Shown here in pieces: positions 5,052-17,209 of a stretch of DNA of 50,776 bases. The notes under the pieces are model-generated. The model did not search any database. It saw only the letters and a list, made by a program, of their open reading frames with translations, and had not been told where the DNA came from. The position numbers were made by a program, and so were the translations under genes. Numbering within the stretch: position 1 is the first letter of the stretch; the number at the start of each line of letters is the position of its first letter. Source of the stretch: an uncultured Alphaproteobacteria bacterium (GTDB lineage: Bacteria > Pseudomonadota > Alphaproteobacteria > Micavibrionales > UBA1664); assembly GCA_943789475.1 (NCBI GenBank), contig CALSUG010000005.1, positions 154,694 to 205,469 on the forward strand. Direction: 5' to 3'.

Positions 5052-6584
5052 ATGACGAACGTGGATATGAAAGACCTTGTTGCATTGTGCAAACGCCGTG
5101 GATTTATTTTTCCGGCATCAGAAATATATGGTGGAATTAATGGTTTTTGGGATTTTGGTCCATTGGGAACAGAATTAAAAAACAACCTGCGTGACATGTG
5201 GTGGAAATGGATGGTAACGACACCACCAATTGGCCCAGATGGCGAACCAGTGCAAATTGTAGGCTTGGATACAGCAATCATTCAAAATCCAAAGGCATGG
5301 GAAGCATCAGGTCACGTGGGTGGATTCAATGACCCTATGGTTGATTGTAAAGAATCAAAAAAACGCTATCGCGCGGACCATATGAATGTTTATCAGGCCG
5401 ATGGTAGTGAGTATTATTTTGCCTTCGATAAAGATGCTTCAACAGAAAATATATTAAAGAAAGTAGAAAAATTTTATAAAAAAAATAAAATAGAATACTC
5501 TCAGGATATAGGAGTACATAAAACAGGGACATATGATAAGTATTTTGATGGTGATGAGGTTGTAGGGCAAACCGACATAGCTAATTTTATAGCCCCAGAT
5601 ACCTATACTTCAGGTACGTTGACCGAACCACGCCAATTTAACATGATGTTCCATTCATTTGCTGGTGCGGCCGCAGGTGAAGAAAATAAGGTTTATCTTC
5701 GCCCAGAAACATGTGGTGGTATTTTCCTGAACTTTAAAAATGTAATGGATAGCTCGCGCGTGAAGATGCCTTTTGGAATTGCCCAAATTGGTAAGGCGTT
5801 CCGTAACGAGGTAACACCACGTAATTTCATTTTCCGTTCACGTGAGTTTGAACAAATGGAATTGGAATGGTTCTGTCATGAAGATGACGTGCCAAAATGG
5901 TTTGATTTTTGGGTCGAGCAACGCAAAAAATTCTGGGATTTTGTAGGTATTGATTTGAACAAAATTCATTTCCTTGATGTACCAGATGGTGATCGTGCGC
6001 ATTATTCACAAAAAACAACGGATTTTGAATATCAATTCCCATTCAGTGGTGATGGATATGATGAATTGGAAGGTGTTGCCCATCGTGGTAATTATGACTT
6101 GACCAAACATCAAGAACATTCTGGGGTTAAGCAACAATACATCGATCCAGTAACGAATGAACGTTATATCCCTCATGTTATTGAACCTTCATGTGGTTTG
6201 ACGCGTGGTGTGTTGGCATTGTTATCCGAGGCATATGTGATTGATGAAAATCGTCCATCAGGTGGATATATGAATTTCAAGCCATCAATGGCACCGAAAA
6301 AAGCCGCGATTTTACCATTGGTTGCCAAGGACGGTATGCCAGAGGCGGCGACAAAGTTATACATGGAATTGCGTGAACATTTTGCCGTTGATTTGGACAT
6401 TAAACAAAATATTGGTAAACGTTATGCGCGTCAGGATGAAATTGGCACACCATATTGCTTTACAATTGATGGTGATACTTTGACGGATGGAACGGTGACT
6501 GTGCGCGAGCGTAACACGATGTCGCAAGAACGCATTCCATTGGATCAAGTTCTTCTATATTTGCGTGAAAAATTGGCATTGTAA
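5052..6584 (+). CDS. glyQS: glycyl-tRNA synthetase, single-chain (homodimeric) type
   Basis: This enzyme charges tRNA-Gly. The 510 residues belong to the alpha2 (eukaryote/archaea-like) class II GlyRS, not the alpha2-beta2 type. The N-terminus reads CKRRGFIFPASEIYGG then FWDFGPLG. Class II motif 2 is at FRNEVTPRN..FRSREFEQME, motif 3 is around EPSCGLTRG, and the C-terminal anticodon-binding domain starts near KAAILPLV. Residues about 115-190 form a lineage-variable insertion. A rho-independent terminator follows the stop. Many alphaproteobacteria carry the two-subunit GlyQ/GlyS, so this is worth comparing. Confidence 0.93.
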   Translation: MTNVDMKDLVALCKRRGFIFPASEIYGGINGFWDFGPLGTELKNNLRDMWWKWMVTTPPIGPDGEPVQIVGLDTAIIQNPKAWEASGHVGGFNDPMVDCKESKKRYRADHMNVYQADGSEYYFAFDKDASTENILKKVEKFYKKNKIEYSQDIGVHKTGTYDKYFDGDEVVGQTDIANFIAPDTYTSGTLTEPRQFNMMFHSFAGAAAGEENKVYLRPETCGGIFLNFKNVMDSSRVKMPFGIAQIGKAFRNEVTPRNFIFRSREFEQMELEWFCHEDDVPKWFDFWVEQRKKFWDFVGIDLNKIHFLDVPDGDRAHYSQKTTDFEYQFPFSGDGYDELEGVAHRGNYDLTKHQEHSGVKQQYIDPVTNERYIPHVIEPSCGLTRGVLALLSEAYVIDENRPSGGYMNFKPSMAPKKAAILPLVAKDGMPEAATKLYMELREHFAVDLDIKQNIGKRYARQDEIGTPYCFTIDGDTLTDGTVTVRERNTMSQERIPLDQVLLYLREKLAL

Positions 6585-7404: not shown

Positions 7405-8763
7405 ATGGCTTCTGCTGTTGAACAAATGGCGCAAAATATGAATTGGGGTTCTGTTGCAAAGGCAACGGAATTAAAGCAACGCATCATGTTTGTGCTCTTC
7501 GCATTAATTATTTACCGTATTGGAACTTATATTCCAATTCCTGGTGTTGATCCAACGGTTTGGCGTGAAATATTCGATCAAAAAAGCGGCGGAATATTGG
7601 ACATGTTCAATATGTTTTCTGGTGGCGCGTTATCGCGTATGACTATTTTTGCATTGAACATTATGCCATACATTTCGGCATCGATTATTATGCAACTTGG
7701 GTCCGCAATGGTTCCACAATTGGAGGCTATCAAAAAAGAAGGTGAACTTGGTCGTGTTAAAATCAACCAATATACACGCTATTTGACGGTGTTGTTGGCG
7801 GCTGTTCAATCATATGGTTTGGCCGTTGGTTTGCAAGCCACACAAGGTGCCGGTGGAATGTCCGCTGTTATTAATCCTGGACCGTTTTTTGTGATTTCAA
7901 CAATGATCACGATTATTGGTGGAACAATCTTTATTATGTGGTTGGGTGAACAAATCACACAACGTGGTATTGGTAACGGTATTTCATTAATTATTTTTGC
8001 AGGTATCGTGGCTGAACTACCACGTGCAGTTGCAGGAACGTTAGAGTTAGGTCGCCAAGGGACGTTTAATGCTCTCGAAATTATAGCATTATTTGCGTTG
8101 GTAACAGGCGCGATTGTCTTAATCGTGTTTATGGAACGTGCGCAACGCCGTATTCCTGTACAATATCCGCGTCGTCAAATGGGTAATGCGATGGCCGCGG
8201 CGCAACAATCGCATTTGCCTTTGAAAATTAATACGGCTGGGGTTATCCCACCAATTTTTGCTTCATCATTATTATTGCTTCCACTAACTATTGTTGGATT
8301 TGCAGGTGAGGGAGGTAGTGATTTTACAGCGATGGTTTCAAGATATCTTGCGCATGGTCAACCGCTATATATGGTCGCTTATGGTGCTTTAATCGCGTTC
8401 TTTTGCTTTTTCTATACTGCGATTGTTTTTAATCCAAAAGAAAATGCAGACATGTTGAAAAAACATGGTGGATTTGTTCCTGGTATTCGTCCAGGTGAAC
8501 AAACTGCAATCTATATTGATTTTGTATTAACACGTGTCACTGTTATTGGAGCTGCATATATTACGTTTGTGTGTTTATTGCCTGAAATTTTGATCTCTCA
8601 ATATAACATTCCGTTCTATTTAGGTGGAACATCATTGTTGATTGTTGTGACTGTGACGATGGATACAGTAGCACAAGTGCATTCACACTTGATTGCTCAT
8701 CAATATGAAGGTCTAATGAAAAAGACAAAACTTCGCGGGGTTAGTCCTCGTGGTCAACGATAA
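7405..8763 (+). CDS. secY: preprotein translocase subunit SecY
   Basis: SecY forms the membrane channel of the Sec translocon with SecE and SecG. The 452 residues show the family pattern: an N-terminal cytoplasmic stretch, YRIGTYIPIPGVDP, plug-region residues GGALSRMTIFALNIMPYI, QLTRYLT-like loop residues, GIGNGISLIIFAGI, and the conserved cytoplasmic loop with RRIPVQYPRR, ten hydrophobic segments in all. An AAGGA lies seven bases ahead of the ATG. adk follows after 19 bases, the standard order. The ribosomal genes normally upstream (rpmD, rplO) are absent, replaced by about 800 bases of gene-free DNA. Confidence 0.97.
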   Translation: MASAVEQMAQNMNWGSVAKATELKQRIMFVLFALIIYRIGTYIPIPGVDPTVWREIFDQKSGGILDMFNMFSGGALSRMTIFALNIMPYISASIIMQLGSAMVPQLEAIKKEGELGRVKINQYTRYLTVLLAAVQSYGLAVGLQATQGAGGMSAVINPGPFFVISTMITIIGGTIFIMWLGEQITQRGIGNGISLIIFAGIVAELPRAVAGTLELGRQGTFNALEIIALFALVTGAIVLIVFMERAQRRIPVQYPRRQMGNAMAAAQQSHLPLKINTAGVIPPIFASSLLLLPLTIVGFAGEGGSDFTAMVSRYLAHGQPLYMVAYGALIAFFCFFYTAIVFNPKENADMLKKHGGFVPGIRPGEQTAIYIDFVLTRVTVIGAAYITFVCLLPEILISQYNIPFYLGGTSLLIVVTVTMDTVAQVHSHLIAHQYEGLMKKTKLRGVSPRGQR

Positions 8764-8782
8764 AACAAGGAAATATAAATAA

Positions 8783-9349
8783 ATGAGATTAATCTTATTA
8801 GGCCCTCCAGGTGCAGGTAAGGGAACACAAGCTAAACGTTTGGAAGATTTGCATGGTTTAAAACAACTTTCGACAGGTGATATGTTACGTGCAGAAATCG
8901 CATCAGATTCAACACTGGGTCGTCGTGTAGAAAGTATTTTGGCTTCAGGTGATTTGGTATCGGATGATATTATGGTTGAAATGATTGCGCACCGTATTAC
9001 AAAACCAGATTGTGAAAAGGGGTTTATTCTTGATGGTTTTCCACGCACTGTGGCACAGGCTGAGGCCTTAGATGATATGTTGCATAATCATAAGTTGGAT
9101 TTGGATGCTGTTATTGAGGTTCAAGTGAATGAAGATGAGTTATTTGGTCGTATTGCGAAGCGTGCAGAAGAGGATGGAACTCGTCCTGATGATAACGTTG
9201 AGGTGATGAAGAACCGTTTGCAAGTTTATAAAGATCTGACGGCACCAATTATTCCTTATTACACTGGAAAAGGGATGTTAAAGCCTGTTGATGGTATGCA
9301 GTCAATTGAAGATGTTGCGAAAGTTATTGATACTATTTTGGATGCATAA
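8783..9349 (+). CDS. adk: adenylate kinase, short LID-less form
   Basis: Adenylate kinase interconverts ATP + AMP with two ADP and balances adenylate pools in the cytoplasm. In 188 residues it has the P-loop GPPGAGKGT at 7-15, the AMP-site STGDMLR, the motif GFPRTVAQAE, and the short lid AKRAEEDGTRPDD, which replaces the longer LID domain and lacks zinc cysteines. That short form is usual in alphaproteobacteria. It forms an operon with secY, and the normal downstream rpsM-rpsK-rpoA genes are not present. A terminator follows 27 bases after the stop. Confidence 0.96.
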   Translation: MRLILLGPPGAGKGTQAKRLEDLHGLKQLSTGDMLRAEIASDSTLGRRVESILASGDLVSDDIMVEMIAHRITKPDCEKGFILDGFPRTVAQAEALDDMLHNHKLDLDAVIEVQVNEDELFGRIAKRAEEDGTRPDDNVEVMKNRLQVYKDLTAPIIPYYTGKGMLKPVDGMQSIEDVAKVIDTILDA

Positions 9350-9376
9350 TGGAAAATATTTGATTAAACTACTTTG

Positions 9377-9404
9377 AAAGCCACTGTTATAGTGGCTTTT
9401 TTAT
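9377..9404 (+). terminator. rho-independent terminator after adk
   Basis: A perfect 9-bp stem AAAGCCACT/AGTGGCTTT with a 5-base loop is followed by a T tract. It lies between adk and the convergent sulfotransferase gene and may serve both strands, better on the plus strand. Confidence 0.9.
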
Positions 9405-9411
9405 TGGAAGC

Positions 9412-10302
9412 CTATATGTTCTTTAACTCTTCAAAATGTGGAATATAGTTTCGTAATAATGCATCTTCTGCTTCAATGATATTTATATAATTACGTTCTT
9501 TCTGCATATATGCTTGGATATCAGATGCTGACCATTCTAAATTTAAATATTGAGAAATAGAGCGTAATGTTTTTTTTGTATCTCGAAGAAAATCTTCGTA
9601 TTGAATTGATAAAAAATGGTTCTCCATTTTTTTTTTACAAAAAGAATGGAATTTATCGTGTGCTTGTAGAACCTTAATTATATTTTCCATGCTGTAAGTA
9701 AAATTCCAATAGTTGCTTTCAAAATATTTTATAAAGAGATTAATGCTATGGTGTTTATTATTACGATGGCACCAAACTATTTTAGAATGAGGTAATATTT
9801 TTTGTAATAGAGGGATGTATAAAAAATTAGAAGGCATTGTGATAATGAGTTTTTTATTTGGATCAGGGTATTCTTTTGCAAAAGCATCTGTAGCTTGTTT
9901 TCCCATTCTCATGAAAGATTTATCGTCTAGATCGCATAGATATAAGGGGTATTTTAGCGAAGTGTTGTTCATAGTATAAGAGGAGAAAAGATTCGAAATG
10001 GTCCCAAGTTCTCCACCGTTAATGCAGCGTGGGTCATTGGATAGTATTTTTTCTAAAGAGCTTTTTCCAGAACGAGGCAAACCTACAATAAATATTAAAT
10101 TTTCACCTTGTGAAAATGAGGGAGCCGAAAAATCATGAAGTTCTAATAGAGCTTTTATATGAGAAATCTGTCTTGCGATATCTACAAAGGGTTCTGAAAA
10201 TCGCATGTTAAGTTGTTGTGCATTATAATCGCGCAAAAACTTAACAGCATCTTTAGGGGTTGAAAATTGACTTAGAGAGGTTGCCCCTTCAAAGTTATCC
10301 AT
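9412..10302 (-). CDS. sulfotransferase-like protein (PAPS-dependent family)
   Basis: The family moves a sulfuryl group from PAPS to a hydroxyl or tyrosine of a protein, lipid or sugar. In 296 residues, the PAPS 5'-phosphosulfate loop reads GLPRSGKSSLEKIL (74-87), followed by GGELG as in TPST/TPR-sulfotransferase relatives. A degenerate 3'-phosphate site (WCHRN, then Ser five residues on) and the late motif YEDFLRD also fit. The usual RSGTT is changed to RSGKS, and the DPRD of classical members is missing. There is no TPR region or signal peptide, so it is probably cytoplasmic. It starts one base inside the stop of the upstream secreted protein. The substrate is unknown, and ATP rather than PAPS binding cannot be excluded. 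Confidence 0.7.
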   Translation of the reverse strand: MDNFEGATSLSQFSTPKDAVKFLRDYNAQQLNMRFSEPFVDIARQISHIKALLELHDFSAPSFSQGENLIFIVGLPRSGKSSLEKILSNDPRCINGGELGTISNLFSSYTMNNTSLKYPLYLCDLDDKSFMRMGKQATDAFAKEYPDPNKKLIITMPSNFLYIPLLQKILPHSKIVWCHRNNKHHSINLFIKYFESNYWNFTYSMENIIKVLQAHDKFHSFCKKKMENHFLSIQYEDFLRDTKKTLRSISQYLNLEWSASDIQAYMQKERNYINIIEAEDALLRNYIPHFEELKNI

Positions 10303-11300
10303 TATTTTTGTTGTTCAAATATTTTATCAACACGTTTGAATAATTCAGGGAATGAACTTTCACTTGGTAATATGTGTCCGACGGCCATCTCTCCATGTAC
10401 ACGTGTAAATCCATTACGGTGCATACCTAAGGTTCCCTCATATTCACGAGTTAACCCTTTTTTGAATGGGAAAACAAATTCACAATTTACAGAGGAACTC
10501 TCTGAACGTCCATAACAGTGAATGTCATCTTTCATAGACCATTGTCCAAAACGAACAGGAGCAGTTAAAAAAGAAATATCACGATCAGCATTCTCTATAC
10601 GAGTTTCACTTGTTGAGAAATATCCGCCATTTTTGTGGAAGTACATTAAATTATCACCAATGAAAAATATTTTTCCAATGACTTCATCATAATACGATTT
10701 CATTCTGTCATTTAATTTTGAACGATCGATTGTTCCGCCTGGTATTGTTTTTGTATAGCGATATTCTTTCATCGTATCTAAGCCTTTTTGGGCCATTGAT
10801 ACATATGACGGGTCAAGAACATAATTGTCGTAAGCCCATCTATTCCATTTAAATGAGGGGGATCTCTCTTCTATGCCATTAATTGTTTGGTATAGTATGA
10901 ATTCTTCTGCGTGGGTGGTCATGAATGTATCTTCGGGAGAATCAGAATAAACAGAATAGCAAAATTCTGTGTTAGCAACATTTAGTTTGTTTTCTGGTTC
11001 ACCATTTGCGTATGTCCAACAAACAAGATCGTCTTTTATAATCCACGTTCCGTTAAGAATCTCACCAGGAGTATTAGTATTTTTGGGATTGTTGAGTTGT
11101 TGTGTAAAGGAACTATCTGGTGCAAAATAAACACGATCAAGATTATATTTTTTCCAAAAGGTATTGTTATCTGTAACGCGTTGGAGCTTATCTTGCTTTA
11201 ATTTTTTAAACGTAGGCGGCTCCTCCGCATAGGAAACGTTTGCCACCATAGCAATGGCGACAAACAAATATAAACTCAAAAGAGATAGTGATTTTTTCAT
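10302..11300 (-). CDS. secreted protein of unknown function with internal duplication
   Basis: A 332-residue protein with a clear signal peptide (MKKSLS, hydrophobic core, likely cut after VSYA). Two similar blocks can be seen. Residues about 55-125 go from VYFAPDS to GTWIIKDDLVCW and a following FCY. Residues about 211-285 go from IFFIGDN to GQWSMKDDIHCY and a following NCEF. The repeated G-W-x-x-KDD-x-x-C pattern with a paired cysteine resembles small periplasmic DUF995-like folds, though I cannot confirm the family. It lies 37 bases after the Hint lipoprotein gene and overlaps the sulfotransferase-like gene by one base, so the three are probably one transcript. Confidence 0.65.
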   Translation of the reverse strand: MKKSLSLLSLYLFVAIAMVANVSYAEEPPTFKKLKQDKLQRVTDNNTFWKKYNLDRVYFAPDSSFTQQLNNPKNTNTPGEILNGTWIIKDDLVCWTYANGEPENKLNVANTEFCYSVYSDSPEDTFMTTHAEEFILYQTINGIEERSPSFKWNRWAYDNYVLDPSYVSMAQKGLDTMKEYRYTKTIPGGTIDRSKLNDRMKSYYDEVIGKIFFIGDNLMYFHKNGGYFSTSETRIENADRDISFLTAPVRFGQWSMKDDIHCYGRSESSSVNCEFVFPFKKGLTREYEGTLGMHRNGFTRVHGEMAVGHILPSESSFPELFKRVDKIFEQQK

Positions 11301-11337
11301 GAAAAACGTCCTGTGGATAGTGTTATGTATGAACAGT

Positions 11338-13668
11338 TTATGCTTTTTTTCTTAAATAATCTAGAGCTTTAAGGCGTCCTTTTTCGGCCGTATTGTCTAT
11401 ATTATTAAGATCATCAGCAGTATCATACACTGTTCCACTTGTTCCAACCACAGGTACAACATGACTTTCTGTTAAGAAGTTGTAAACAGTTCTAACAGTG
11501 TCACTATGGTCATGTCTTGTGGATTTACTATAATCACCAAGCTTTTGCCATTTTCCTTCAAGATGGACAGGATGTTGTCCCGTTGTAATTACGCCATCAT
11601 ACTCAAACAGTCCACCATTTATACCGATAATACCATCATCTGTATATGCAAGTGCTTCCTCATAACCACGTGCATACTTGTGCAGTATACGGCCCGAAAT
11701 AGTTTCATCACCGATTTGTACATTTTCTACACGTTTTGTGGAGCCATCAGCCATGGCGATGAGTGTTCCTGCAACGAAACAGTTGTTACCACCGCTACCG
11801 CCACCACTACCACCGTTTCCTGAGCCACCACTAGGTTCTACACAGACACCAACGGTATCACTTGGGGCATTTCTTGTGTAGCGATCGATTTCTTTAAAAG
11901 CTTTGGTTCTTTCCTTTGTATCCTCAGGTAATGCTTCAGCCACCTCAATCATTCTATCTAGCTCGGCCTCCCATGCGGGAAGGGCTGGGTTTGGTCTCTG
12001 TACGTATCTACCAGGTGCTTGCACCGTGTGCCATTCATTCCATCGCCCATTATCAGGGCGTGTTGCTTCAAAGCGTCGTCCTTCTATATGTACACCACAC
12101 GTTCTACTTGTAGATCGTTGAATTTGATAGCGACAGAACATGTCATCATTAGAATCATTCCATTCTCCCTTATACTGGGCTTCATTAGGGGTCATTGTTG
12201 ATGCATTCGCCCATCCAGATACACTTGATTTCCTCTTATAATTTAGACCATTATTATGTGTCCAAAGATTGCTTCTTCCGTTGAAATTAGAACGCGGATC
12301 CCTTCTATCAGGGAACATTTGGTTACAAGTGAAGTGAAGTGTATTAGGTCTAGAACATTCGATACTTACACCTTCATGAGAAACCACTTCAACTTCATCT
12401 GTTTGTGATCCTGTTTCTCCACCATAATCATTCATTACTTCATAAAAACGAGAAATCTTTTTAAGTGTAATTTCGCCTGTCATTTCACCATATGAAAGAG
12501 ATCCTTGTTTGTTATCCAAAGCGTTGTGAACACCTGTAAAATCATTGTGTGAAACATTGATAGTAACTGTACCGGCTGTATCAGGTTGCGCAGGACAGGC
12601 CTGAACAATGATGTTTTCTTCTTCGCGAAGAAGACGACGTTCTTCAGCACTCATGCCTTCAAGCAGGTCTAACGCACCAGCGTCTTCACACGTATCAAAC
12701 TCATCGTTATCTTCGCCTTTTTCAGGATCTTCTTTTTTATTAACATCCTTACACTCAAGATCATTTAAGTTAGAACGTAATGTGTTGGCAATACCACCTG
12801 ATGATATACCAGATAATGACGCCATGTTTACCGCATCAGCTGTACTGGCAGAAACAACACGTGTAACGCTTTCGTTTAATGCAATACACTCATTTGAAAT
12901 TTCACTCCATGTTAAAGAATTATCAGCAATAACTTCCGTTTCACTATCAAATCCACGACCTTGAACAACAATATCGCCAGCTGCGGTAAATGAAGCATCA
13001 ACACGTTGTAAAATACCACCTTCTTGATCTGCACCACATGAGGCAGCGCGTGTAATAAATTTTTCTTGTGTTTGTGTTACTTGGACAGGGGCAGGTATGC
13101 GAATGGCCGCAACGGCTGATCCTTCTGGAATGTTAATTGTACTACATCCACCGCTCAGCGATAATGTACTTGCTCCATCATTAATCGCGATAGATGAACC
13201 TGTCATCACACCAAAATTTTGATTGGGAATAATGTCTTTAATTTTTAATGACACAAGACCTGATTGCTTCGCACCAAGCCCTTTAAGGAATAGATCACCA
13301 TCACTATCTTGTTTATCAAACCATGTGAGGTGATATGCATCGCCACTAATATTACAATGAGCACTTTGAATATAGCTTTCTGCTTGTCCTAAGTTAAGAG
13401 ATCCAAATTGTGCTTCGGATAAATCTAGAGATCCTTCTGGAAGTAATTGTGCTTGCCATGCAGTCGAATTAACCACGGCATTTAAGGCTTGATTAGAATA
13501 ATGTTCAAAAGCCTGAGCATATGATGTGGCCATCGCCTCAACACGTTTAACGTCTTGTTCTTGACTGGCAACTTCATCTTCTGGAACACAAGCGGAAAGA
13601 ACAAGAGCGCTCGCCCCCATCAATAAAACACCACTTAATCCATTCATATTAATAACTTTTTTACTCAT
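11338..13668 (-). CDS. large lipoprotein with C-terminal Hint (hedgehog/intein-type) domain
   Basis: The start is taken at 13668, because AAGGG lies 9 bases ahead of it and directly abuts an earlier in-frame ATG at 13677. The 776 residues begin with a lipoprotein signal (LSAC, Cys at 27). A long region of unknown fold with many Cys and an acidic stretch near 305-325 follows. After a Gly/Ser-rich linker the last 147 residues form a Hint domain starting at Cys630: CFVAGTLIAMADGST, VENVQIGDE, the block-B motif TGQHPVH, and HVVPV near its end. Hint domains self-cleave at the N-terminal Cys. The terminal HN of true inteins is absent, so cleavage rather than splicing is expected. It is the first gene of a three-gene unit. 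Confidence 0.75.
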   Translation of the reverse strand: MSKKVINMNGLSGVLLMGASALVLSACVPEDEVASQEQDVKRVEAMATSYAQAFEHYSNQALNAVVNSTAWQAQLLPEGSLDLSEAQFGSLNLGQAESYIQSAHCNISGDAYHLTWFDKQDSDGDLFLKGLGAKQSGLVSLKIKDIIPNQNFGVMTGSSIAINDGASTLSLSGGCSTINIPEGSAVAAIRIPAPVQVTQTQEKFITRAASCGADQEGGILQRVDASFTAAGDIVVQGRGFDSETEVIADNSLTWSEISNECIALNESVTRVVSASTADAVNMASLSGISSGGIANTLRSNLNDLECKDVNKKEDPEKGEDNDEFDTCEDAGALDLLEGMSAEERRLLREEENIIVQACPAQPDTAGTVTINVSHNDFTGVHNALDNKQGSLSYGEMTGEITLKKISRFYEVMNDYGGETGSQTDEVEVVSHEGVSIECSRPNTLHFTCNQMFPDRRDPRSNFNGRSNLWTHNNGLNYKRKSSVSGWANASTMTPNEAQYKGEWNDSNDDMFCRYQIQRSTSRTCGVHIEGRRFEATRPDNGRWNEWHTVQAPGRYVQRPNPALPAWEAELDRMIEVAEALPEDTKERTKAFKEIDRYTRNAPSDTVGVCVEPSGGSGNGGSGGGSGGNNCFVAGTLIAMADGSTKRVENVQIGDETISGRILHKYARGYEEALAYTDDGIIGINGGLFEYDGVITTGQHPVHLEGKWQKLGDYSKSTRHDHSDTVRTVYNFLTESHVVPVVGTSGTVYDTADDLNNIDNTAEKGRLKALDYLRKKA

Positions 13669-13813
13669 CTCAATCATCCCTTACTTAAATAGCACCCGTA
13701 TAAACAAAGGCACAGTTCTCCTATCTTTGTTCCAGAGTACACCCACATTCCTTAAATTTAAGTAAAATTTTAAAAGTTTTTTATTATTTATTGATTTTTT
13801 AACGTCGTCTCTT

Positions 13814-14560
13814 TTACTTTGAAGACCACTCAGCCCATGAACCATCAAACACGGCGACGTTGTTATGCCCACATTCTTGTAATGCAAGCGCCGTTGCACA
13901 CGCCGTTACACCACTTCCGCATGTTGTCGCGAGTGGAAGATTGTTATCAATGACTGGTTTTAAGATTGTTTTCAGTTCACTAACTGATTTTAAACGACAC
14001 TGTGGCGTGATGAGTGTAGAAAGTGGAATGGATACGGCATAATTTATATGGACGGCCTCGTAGGCTTGTGCAGGGCGAACATCGATTAGCATGAATTCAT
14101 TGCCATTATGTGATTTTACATCATCATAAGATTTATAGAGATGTGATTGAAATCTTGATTTAAAATTTCGAGATTCGTGTTGTTTTTGAGAGTAGGGAGC
14201 AAGTTCTCCGTTCCATGCCTGCAATCCGCCATCAAGAATTTTGATATTGTTGTGTCCAAACAAACGGAACATCCACCATACACGCGCCGCGGCCATCCAA
14301 AATCCGGATTGATCAAAAACAATGATTTCTGAGTTATTACTAATTCCCATATTTGATACACATTTAGAGAAGTATTCAGGCGTAGGAATTGTGTGTGCCA
14401 AGGGAGCGTTTAAATCCGCAATAGCGTCAATATCAAAGTGCTGTGCTCCCTCAATTGTATAATTGATTGGTTGACCATAGGTGGCGTCTAACAAGATAAA
14501 ATTACTGTCATTATTTGTTATTTTATCTTGTAATTGTGCAGGTGATATAAGAGCGGACAT
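13814..14560 (-). CDS. sseA: 3-mercaptopyruvate/thiosulfate sulfurtransferase (two rhodanese domains)
   Basis: Tandem rhodanese enzymes move sulfur from mercaptopyruvate or thiosulfate to a thiol or cyanide through a persulfide on Cys. The 248 residues hold an inactive N-terminal domain (LLDATY, then VFDQSGFWMAARVWW) and a catalytic C-terminal domain with LIDVRPAQAYE and the active loop CGSGVTA. The loop CGSGVT, not CRKGVT, is typical of the mercaptopyruvate type. The protein is somewhat shorter than the usual 280 residues. It starts 3 bases after valS stops, so it is translationally linked to valS. Confidence 0.85.
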   Translation of the reverse strand: MSALISPAQLQDKITNNDSNFILLDATYGQPINYTIEGAQHFDIDAIADLNAPLAHTIPTPEYFSKCVSNMGISNNSEIIVFDQSGFWMAAARVWWMFRLFGHNNIKILDGGLQAWNGELAPYSQKQHESRNFKSRFQSHLYKSYDDVKSHNGNEFMLIDVRPAQAYEAVHINYAVSIPLSTLITPQCRLKSVSELKTILKPVIDNNLPLATTCGSGVTACATALALQECGHNNVAVFDGSWAEWSSK

Positions 14561-14563
14561 TTA

Positions 14564-17209
14564 TTATGCAACATCCAATTGATCAAGAGCAGAGTTCAAT
14601 TTTTTAATAACAATTTGTGCTTCTTTCTTACGATGTTTTTGTTCCTCAATTACTTCTTCTGGAGCTTTAGAAACAAAATTTTCATTCGCCAGTTTACCGT
14701 CAATTTGCTTGATGTCCTTTTCAAGTTTTTGAATTTCTTTTTGCAAACGGGCACGCTCTTTGTCCAGATCAATGATATCTGCAACAGGAAGACCAAGAGT
14801 AACCTCGCCAACAACCAATTGGATCGCACCTTGTGGCATTTCCGACACAATATCGAATGATTTCACTCGCGCCATTTTAAAGATAATCGCTTGATGTGTT
14901 TGCATCCATGATTGTGTTTCATCATCGGCATCCATAACCAAGACATCTAATTGTGCGCTTGCGGGGACATTCATATCCGTACGCACCGAGCGAATATCAG
15001 ACACAATGCGTTGCAACCATGTGATTTCACGACGAGCATCGGCATAACGCCATTCAGCTTTTATCTCTGGCCATGATTGCTCCATCAACAAATTACTATC
15101 ATCATGAAATTCTGCATATAATGTTTCGGTAATATACGGCATGAATGGGTTTAGGATTTTTAGAATCTGATCCAATACCCAACCTGTCGTTGTCTTTGTT
15201 TCGTCGGCATAATCCGTATCCATTAATGGTTTTGTAAATTCCAAATACCAGTCACAGAACGTCCCCCAGATAAAGTGATACACACCATTTGCAGCATCGT
15301 TAAAACGGTATTGTTCCATTGATTGATTCAGTGTTTCAACAACACTCATCGTTTCGTCAATCATCCATTGGTTTGTTGGATTTTGAACTGTTTCTGGAGC
15401 GAAATTTACACGAGGCATTGCTTCGTTCATCTGACAATAACGTGCAGCATTCCACAATTTTGTTCCGAAATTACGATATCCTTCCAAACGTTGTTCTGCT
15501 AATTTAATGTCACGACCCTGTCCGCACATTGCACATAGTGTGAAACGTAACGCATCAGCACCGTATTTTTCAGTTAGATCAAGTGGGTTTAAAACATTCC
15601 CCTTTGATTTTGACATTTTTGCACCCTTTGAATCACGGACAAGGCCATGCATATATACCTTTGGAAATGGCGTTTTACCATTCATTTCATACATGCCCAT
15701 CATCATCATGCGCGCGACCCAGAAAAAGATAATATCAAACCCTGTCACCAAAATATCACCAGGGTAATATTTGTCGAGTTCAGCCGTTTTTTCGGGCCAT
15801 CCAAGTGTTGCAAATGGCCATAAACCAGATGAAAACCATGTATCTAAGATATCTTCATCTTGTGTCAATTCAACAGCTTCACCGTAATGTTTCATTGCGG
15901 CTTCATACGCTTCAGCCTCTGTTTCTTCAACAAAGACATTACCATCGGGTCCATACCACGCTGGAATTTGATACCCCCACCATAATTGGCGGGAAATACA
16001 CCATGGCTCCAAATTCCGCATCCATGAATAATATGTGTTTTCCCACTGTTTTGGCACGAATTGGGTTGTTTCATTTTCAACGGCTTCTAATGCTTGTTTA
16101 CCCATTGTCTGGGCATCAACATACCATTGATCAGTCAAGTAGGGTTCAACGACAACGCCTGTTCTCTCAGCTAAAGGAACTTGATGAACATGATCCTCGA
16201 TCTTTTCCAGATATTCTAGCTCATCTAAGTCAGCGATAATTTTATCACGTGCGGCAAAACGATCTAATCCTTGATAATCATCTGGACAATTTTCGTTCAT
16301 TGTTCCGTCAGGATTCATTAAATTAATTAATGGAATGCCTTTTTCTTTGTGACGTTTGTAAACTTCAAAGTCATTATAGTCATGCGCCGCTGTAATTTTT
16401 ACCGCACCTGAACCAAAATCAGCCTTCACATACTCGTCCGCAACGATTGGAATAATACGATTACATACGGGCACCACAACAAATTTACCAACGACGTTTT
16501 TGTATCGTTCATCATCTGGGTGAACCGCAATGGCTCCATCGGCTAAAATTGTTTCGGGGCGTGTTGTTGCGATTGAAATATGTCCAGAACCATCTTCGTA
16601 CATGTATTTTACATGGTACATCTTCCCCTTAATATCCTTGTGATCTACCTCGATATCAGAAATAGAAGTCTGCATTTTGGGATCCCAATTCACCAAACGT
16701 TGATCGCGGTAAATCAATCCATCTTTGTGCATTTTTACAAAAATATTGATCACTGATTTCATATAGGCATCATCCATTGTGAAACGTTCGCGTGACCAAT
16801 CTGGTGTTGCCCCCAATTGGCGCAATTGTTCCATGATTGTTCCGCCAGATTCTTCTTTTTGTTTCCAACAACGGTTTAGAAATTCCGCGCGACCGACTTC
16901 TTTTTTGGATGTGCCTTCGGCTTCTAATTGTTTGGATACTAAGACATCCACCGCGATTGATGCGTGATCTGTTCCAGGCATCCATAAAACATCTTTACCA
17001 AGCATTCGTTGATAACGTGCAATGACATCTTGTAAAGACATCACAAGTGCGTGACCAACGTGAAGAGATCCCGTTACATTTGGTGGCGGCATCATGATAG
17101 TAAACGGCTCTTTATCCGATGATGGGTCCGCCTTTAATATCGGGGATTGTTCAAATTTTGGTGTAAATTCGGCCTGCGCCTTTTGAAAATCGAATGATTT
17201 GTCGAGCAT
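14564..17209 (-). CDS. valS: valyl-tRNA synthetase
   Basis: Class I synthetase charging tRNA-Val. The 881 residues show the HIGH-type motif within PPPNVTGSLHVGHAL (HVGH 50-53), the CP1 editing domain, and the KMSKS motif KMSKSKGN near residue 530. The C-terminal anticodon-binding domain is followed by a charged helical tail (EKEIQKLEKDIK) that matches the ValRS coiled-coil arm. Length is normal. It lies downstream of popZ, a common alphaproteobacterial order, and upstream of sseA. Confidence 0.97.
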   Translation of the reverse strand: MLDKSFDFQKAQAEFTPKFEQSPILKADPSSDKEPFTIMMPPPNVTGSLHVGHALVMSLQDVIARYQRMLGKDVLWMPGTDHASIAVDVLVSKQLEAEGTSKKEVGRAEFLNRCWKQKEESGGTIMEQLRQLGATPDWSRERFTMDDAYMKSVINIFVKMHKDGLIYRDQRLVNWDPKMQTSISDIEVDHKDIKGKMYHVKYMYEDGSGHISIATTRPETILADGAIAVHPDDERYKNVVGKFVVVPVCNRIIPIVADEYVKADFGSGAVKITAAHDYNDFEVYKRHKEKGIPLINLMNPDGTMNENCPDDYQGLDRFAARDKIIADLDELEYLEKIEDHVHQVPLAERTGVVVEPYLTDQWYVDAQTMGKQALEAVENETTQFVPKQWENTYYSWMRNLEPWCISRQLWWGYQIPAWYGPDGNVFVEETEAEAYEAAMKHYGEAVELTQDEDILDTWFSSGLWPFATLGWPEKTAELDKYYPGDILVTGFDIIFFWVARMMMMGMYEMNGKTPFPKVYMHGLVRDSKGAKMSKSKGNVLNPLDLTEKYGADALRFTLCAMCGQGRDIKLAEQRLEGYRNFGTKLWNAARYCQMNEAMPRVNFAPETVQNPTNQWMIDETMSVVETLNQSMEQYRFNDAANGVYHFIWGTFCDWYLEFTKPLMDTDYADETKTTTGWVLDQILKILNPFMPYITETLYAEFHDDSNLLMEQSWPEIKAEWRYADARREITWLQRIVSDIRSVRTDMNVPASAQLDVLVMDADDETQSWMQTHQAIIFKMARVKSFDIVSEMPQGAIQLVVGEVTLGLPVADIIDLDKERARLQKEIQKLEKDIKQIDGKLANENFVSKAPEEVIEEQKHRKKEAQIVIKKLNSALDQLDVA

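Follow-up and report, generated by a model that had tools for sequence, protein, structure and literature searches.

The three minus-strand genes described here, from a window (the whole stretch of DNA analysed) of 50,776 nucleotides, are a real, conserved unit encoding a lipoprotein that ends in a Hint domain, a secreted partner and a protein of the sulfotransferase fold. The explanation proposed for them, to which we assign an even chance of being right, is a surface-lipoprotein system of modular build, belonging to a few Micavibrio-like Alphaproteobacteria, with gene-converted fronts, exchangeable ends and, in a core group, dedicated partners. The original prediction described the three genes; the main point that it did not contain is this proposed family, with a gene-converted constant front, exchangeable ends and, in the core group, its own secreted partner for each copy.

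Organization and conservation of the cassette

The features of the cassette are collected in Table 1. The three genes had been predicted to lie tightly packed on one strand, and this proved correct, the 37-base gap and the 1-base overlap between the open reading frames both being exact. The lipoprotein frame begins at 13677, and the start given for it originally is an in-frame ATG at 13668. A terminator-like hairpin separates the cassette from the converging adk gene. No Rfam match was obtained over window positions 8500-15000, a promoter scan stayed at chance level, and the PHROGs and PADLOC searches returned nothing useful.

Table 1. Coordinates of the cassette features within the window, unless another locus is named
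Feature	Position	Strand	Remarks
Lipoprotein gene, 779 aa	11338..13677	(-)	signal peptide II, constant front module, Cys-rich middle, Gly/Ser linker, C-terminal Hint
Block 100% identical to the C6 copy, 1,468 bp	12307..13774	(-)	codons 1-457 and the 97 bp ahead of them; edges abrupt
Predicted lipidated Cys30, lipobox LSAC	13588..13590	(-)	from sequence; C30 nearly invariant across the family
Variable middle, Cys-rich, about residues 458-612	11842..12306	(-)	divergent between the C5 and C6 copies, 31-40% identity where they align
Gly/Ser-rich linker, residues 616-632	11782..11832	(-)	from sequence
C-terminal Hint, residues 633-779, short conserved tail included	11341..11781	(-)	no space left for another domain
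Cys633, predicted N-S acyl shift nucleophile	11779..11781	(-)	invariant in 5/5 cassette Hints
TGQH699-702, Hint block B TxxH motif	11572..11583	(-)	TGxH in 5/5
Secreted partner, 332 aa	10302..11300	(-)	signal peptide plus duplicated unit, lipocalin-like first domain
First partner motif, GTWIIKDDLVC	11019..11051	(-)
Second partner motif, GQWSMKDDIHC	10515..10547	(-)
Sulfotransferase-fold P-loop protein, 296 aa	9412..10302	(-)	no signal peptide seen
Walker A GLPRSGKS, replacing the PAPS 5'-loop GMPRSGTT	10060..10083	(-)
Vicinity of glycyl-tRNA synthetase-like gene	window 5052-6584; L022 16389-17933; L050 5030-6517

A search for the same gene order in related genomes, which had been suggested as a check, found the Hint lipoprotein, secreted protein and sulfotransferase-like protein in the same order and strand in two others, NORP145 (G004) and Micavibrio sp. 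UBA6147 (G005). The UBA6147 cassette holds two tandem lipoproteins, and a third Hint lipoprotein of that genome, cut by a contig start, has a partner gene after it and no third gene. The combination of features was not found in the literature searched, and its parts resemble known kinds, namely intein-like domains in variable exported proteins and polymorphic proteins with constant and variable portions.

In three genomes, a cassette or lipoprotein copy lies at most about 5 kb from a glycyl-tRNA synthetase-like gene, which may mark an ancestral locus. Five tandem paralogous genes (about 280-300 aa, with starts MADK, MADS or MADR) stand directly after a cassette end on UBA6147 contig C4 (L100 3027-7818). 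The IMG/VR contig 3300001605_004935 (L173 1-4852) is 99.96% identical to the start of that contig, which carries the cassette end; its viral listing is probably a false call, with no evidence of phage. A phage or plasmid origin of the cassette was rejected, as the lipoprotein had no protein match in phages or plasmids, the partner none in plasmids and the third protein none in phages.

The constant front and the ends of the lipoprotein

The first protein had been read as a lipoprotein with a Gly/Ser linker near its end, and both the lipobox and the linker are present. The front had no match in Pfam, and the AlphaFold model of the full-length protein (pLDDT 42) was unusable. The major data concern a second lipoprotein gene (734 aa) in the same genome (1.97 Mb, 97% complete, 9 contigs), which lies on contig C6, the window copy being on contig C5. 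The block over which the two copies are identical covers 210 fourfold-degenerate sites and 97 non-coding bases, and their DNA diverges at once outside it. As silent and non-coding sites are also identical, purifying selection on the protein is not the cause. Past the block, the proteins share 31-40% identity over a short stretch and are unrelated thereafter, the C6 copy terminating in an end of 122 residues behind a Gly-rich linker, and the C5 copy in the Hint domain.

The C5 front, fully identical to that of C6, is 40% identical to that of NORP145. The C5 Hint and partner are 52% and 46% identical, respectively, to their NORP145 counterparts, while the C5 and C6 partners are 22% identical and the ends are unlike. 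Since the C5 Hint and partner are closer to those of NORP145 than to those of C6, it was deduced that the ends are older than the species split and that the identity of the fronts is recent. Judged from these alignments, the simplest reading of the identical block would be gene conversion or a single replacement of the front. An assembly error at the identical repeat retains a residual probability, given a 97% complete genome in 9 contigs.

The C6 end had no Pfam, PDB or viral relative and matched no toxin family. No silent donor cassettes for it were found in its own genome, where the lipoprotein copies found are two only, and with two copies and no silent cassettes the exchange of ends may be slow. 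A 1,622-aa haemagglutinin-like two-partner-secretion exoprotein adjoins the C6 copy (L003 12026-16894).

The lipoprotein front was present in 11 of the 142 genomes that made up the sample of the order and absent from the 384 other genomes drawn from the class. A scan of named genomes gave no match with the front, and the Hint alignment matched NORP145 and UBA6147. Multiple copies were found in G014 (at least two, with different flanks and with fronts 99.4% identical over 1,853 bp), in G008 (at least three, at 86-91% DNA identity) and in UBA6147 (three, including a tandem pair 73% identical). Contigs of G008 and G014 often break inside lipoprotein genes, as expected for repeats. Among the relatives, the end is a VWA domain in G001 (E 3.4e-16), in G014 a Hint having the canonical HNK at its C terminus, and in G008 a set of Cys-rich repeats.

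The Hint end, the secreted partner and the third gene

The Hint domain opens with Cys633-FVAGTLIAMADGS. Its block A has the N-terminal Cys with GTxIxMADG and its block B the TxxH motif, so that the N-terminal Cys and TGQH claimed originally are present, the residue then numbered Cys630 being Cys633. A search with the single sequence returned Vint below the curated cut-off (E 2.4e-4). A profile of the cassette Hints matched five other, independent Hints of the order over blocks A and B (E 3.9e-13) and PDB inteins (E 2.7e-5 and 5.6e-5); the PDB entries returned were PI-SceI and a protein bearing an intein, 8w20, the latter being the best profile match. The assignment to the Hint fold was thus supported by the profiles but not by the predicted structure, as the AlphaFold pLDDT was <35 in the region. 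Blocks F/G of the window copy do not align to other Hints. There is no terminal His-Asn in the cassette Hint; a conserved tail, EKGRLK...A, closes the protein and directly ends the Hint, leaving no room for cargo.

B-type bacterial intein-like (BIL) domains possess all intein motifs except the C-terminal one and cleave at their N terminus (PMC7765530). The cassette Hint is like them in its N-terminal Cys and TxxH, in its position in a non-conserved part of an exported protein and in the missing C-terminal His-Asn motif (blocks A and B were verified, and block F was not alignable). With this motif set, N-terminal cleavage would be expected, and by analogy this is the likeliest reaction. Our best guess is that the Hint acts at its Cys on the exported lipoprotein. 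Unlike B-type BIL domains, it follows a Gly/Ser linker at the very end of the protein, belongs to a set of exchangeable ends carried by a homogenised lipoprotein front, and is linked to a secreted partner and a P-loop gene.

A second C-terminal Hint protein is encoded about 28 kb from the cassette (G000:C5:136324-142810; L142 4324-9736, L101 2726-3811), near genes for a pilin-like GNIFAMLFAAVGMTGVLGVVGMQ protein and a long protein whose end resembles an S74 chaperone (DRRLKKDI). A relative of the pilin-like gene stands directly upstream of the cassette in NORP145 (L020 5449-6045). Three consecutive genes of G093 (L102 1-8304) contain or terminate in a poly-Gly linker and a Hint, and the first of them (1,385 aa) has a prepilin-like segment, GFTLIELSIVITIIG, near its start. 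A Gly linker with a Hint seems to be a common surface-protein ending in the order.

The two halves of the secreted partner align with each other (E 1.1e-4), indicating a tandem duplication. The two similar blocks described originally were therefore confirmed as a duplication, while the motif was corrected to G-x-W-x-x-KDD-x-x-C, with one residue more between G and W. In the partner model (pLDDT 70), the first domain appears lipocalin-like, with Z scores of 9.1 and 8.6 at 2.8-4.2 Å over 92-110 residues (for the latter match, 2.8 Å over 92 residues) and Foldseek E values above 0.05. The predicted beta-barrel is like that of the bacterial lipocalin-like periplasmic proteins potempin E and the NlpE N-domain (Z 6-9), from which the partner differs in having no sequence similarity, two tandem domains and no Pfam family. 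Among the 142 genomes sampled from the order, the partner family occurs 6 times, in four genomes, and every occurrence adjoins a member of this lipoprotein family or its Hint. Hint ends (C5, NORP145 and two UBA6147 loci) have the long, two-domain type, and the short one accompanies C6 and G002; as the subtype follows the type of end, these sequences suggest that the partner serves the end module and not the front. No secreted partner of this family accompanies the lipoproteins of G001, G006, G007, G008 and G014.

The third protein matches Sulfotransfer_3 (E 8.6e-26), and its best PDB relatives are tyrosylprotein sulfotransferases. The sulfotransferase search scored the cassette proteins, three in number, at E values of ~1e-153 or better and the next match at 1.7e-44. 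Its description as sulfotransferase-like therefore holds for the family, but not for the PAPS-type loop, which is a Walker A motif. The pattern GxxxxGK[ST] was found in all three cassette proteins (GLPRSGKS, GLSRSGKS and GMPRCGKT) and the PAPS 5'-loop PRSG[TS][TS] in none of them, a Lys occupying the position at which all 54 readable comparators (related sulfotransferases of the order and phylum) have Thr or Ser. The Ser of the 3'-phosphate motif R-x-P-x-D-x-x-x-S is replaced by N, N and D in the cassette proteins; among the comparators it is Ser in 40 and Ala in 1, with the motif not read in 15. The third protein thus has the fold family and overall sequence of the tyrosylprotein sulfotransferases, from which it departs in these two sites, and the two changes make the use of PAPS doubtful. 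They also remove much of the basis for the earlier idea that a surface protein is sulfated. Sulfotransferases share the loop with nucleotide kinases, so the change to Lys restores a Walker A motif, and the protein may bind ATP or GTP. The G+C content of the third gene (window 9412-10302) is 31.5%, against 39.3% in the window as a whole, a possible sign of a separate origin.

Alternative readings and implications

Each of these deductions has a rival. The third gene could encode an ordinary PAPS sulfotransferase, with the lipoprotein or a surface glycan as its target, as would fit its Sulfotransfer_3 match and its PDB relatives. This was deemed rather doubtful because the Thr of the 5'-phosphosulfate (PSB) loop and the Ser of the 3'-phosphate site are both altered in all three cassette proteins, the former against the Thr or Ser of every readable comparator, and because the protein is cytoplasmic. 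For the identical block, one recent replacement of the front, by a fresh copy placed onto an older gene with no continuing homogenisation, is sufficient to explain a fully identical, abruptly bounded block of 1,468 bp. The near-identical fronts in G014 and the similar ones in G008 nevertheless suggest a repeated process, and a single replacement is considered unlikely.

A constant front, a variable end and a variable adjacent gene are also the classic architecture of a polymorphic toxin system. In a system of the MafB kind, the variable C terminus would be a contact toxin, released by the Hint where one is present, and the adjacent exported protein would be its immunity protein. In Neisseria MafB proteins, a conserved domain is combined with a variable end that is toxic and, in some, with a Hint (PMC7738311); a conserved N-terminal part, an optional Hint, a variable C-terminal part and several loci per genome are common to the maf islands and the cassette family. 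The PDB entry best matching the Hint profile bears an intein. We do not expect this reading to hold, since only the short conserved tail follows the window Hint and leaves nothing to release, the C6 end matches no toxin family, and lipoproteins with VWA or Cys-rich ends have no partner. In addition, the long partners are exported two-domain proteins of about 330 aa conserved over genera, whereas immunity proteins are small and fast-evolving. The cassette further differs from the maf genomic islands in that DUF1020 is missing, no toxin follows the Hint, no silent cassettes were found, and the lipoprotein is the cassette protein itself. The PilV shufflon adhesins of IncI1 plasmids likewise join a constant N-terminal part to exchangeable C-terminal ends, but the cassette protein is a lipoprotein and not a prepilin, its two loci are separate and chromosomal, and no invertible segments were seen; a relation was rejected on sequence (hhalign of the lipoprotein-family profile against R64 PilV, probability 0.4). 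A hedgehog-like ligation, in which the Hint would pass the lipoprotein C terminus to a nucleophile on the lipocalin-like partner and form a covalent conjugate, would be consistent with a Cys and TxxH without terminal His-Asn, as in Hog and B-type BIL domains, with a long partner at every Hint-type locus in the three cassette genomes, and with a partner fold that could hold a small ligand. It has neither a sterol-recognition region nor an identified nucleophile in its favor, the short partner occurs also with a non-Hint end, and its probability is low.

The preferred explanation is that of a modular lipoprotein system with gene-converted fronts. The sequences show several gene copies in a genome that have in common a front module (signal peptide II and about 430 aa), kept uniform together with the upstream region, most simply by gene conversion, and C-terminal parts that are old, divergent and exchangeable: the Hint here, and VWA, Cys-rich or other ends elsewhere. 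Each core-group copy has its own secreted partner, either after or before it. We infer the surface location, the cleavage and the role of the partner as follows. Anchoring and display at the outer membrane would fall to the front module, and the work of binding or processing to the end module. In the window Hint, an N-S acyl shift at Asn632-Cys633 would most likely be followed by cleavage, either releasing the Hint of ~147 residues or passing the new C terminus of the lipoprotein to a nucleophile. The lipocalin-like partner would most likely escort or restrain its particular end, and the third gene product would be a cytoplasmic P-loop protein of sulfotransferase descent, probably binding ATP or GTP rather than PAPS. 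An extended version, highly improbable in our estimate, would keep the anchor constant by gene conversion and swap the ends, each with a lipocalin-like partner, with one Hint end transferring the lipoprotein C terminus covalently to a ligand or protein that the partner provides, as a prokaryotic counterpart of hedgehog ligation.

If the proposed system is real, a chromosomal constant/variable display system acting through gene conversion would join the few known ways by which bacteria diversify their surface. Micavibrio is a genus of epibiotic predators, and surface recognition matters in a lineage related to it. A bacterial intein-like domain would also gain a fixed genetic partner, which would make the function of such domains testable, and the third gene may exemplify the natural conversion of a sulfotransferase into an NTP-binding protein through one loop change.
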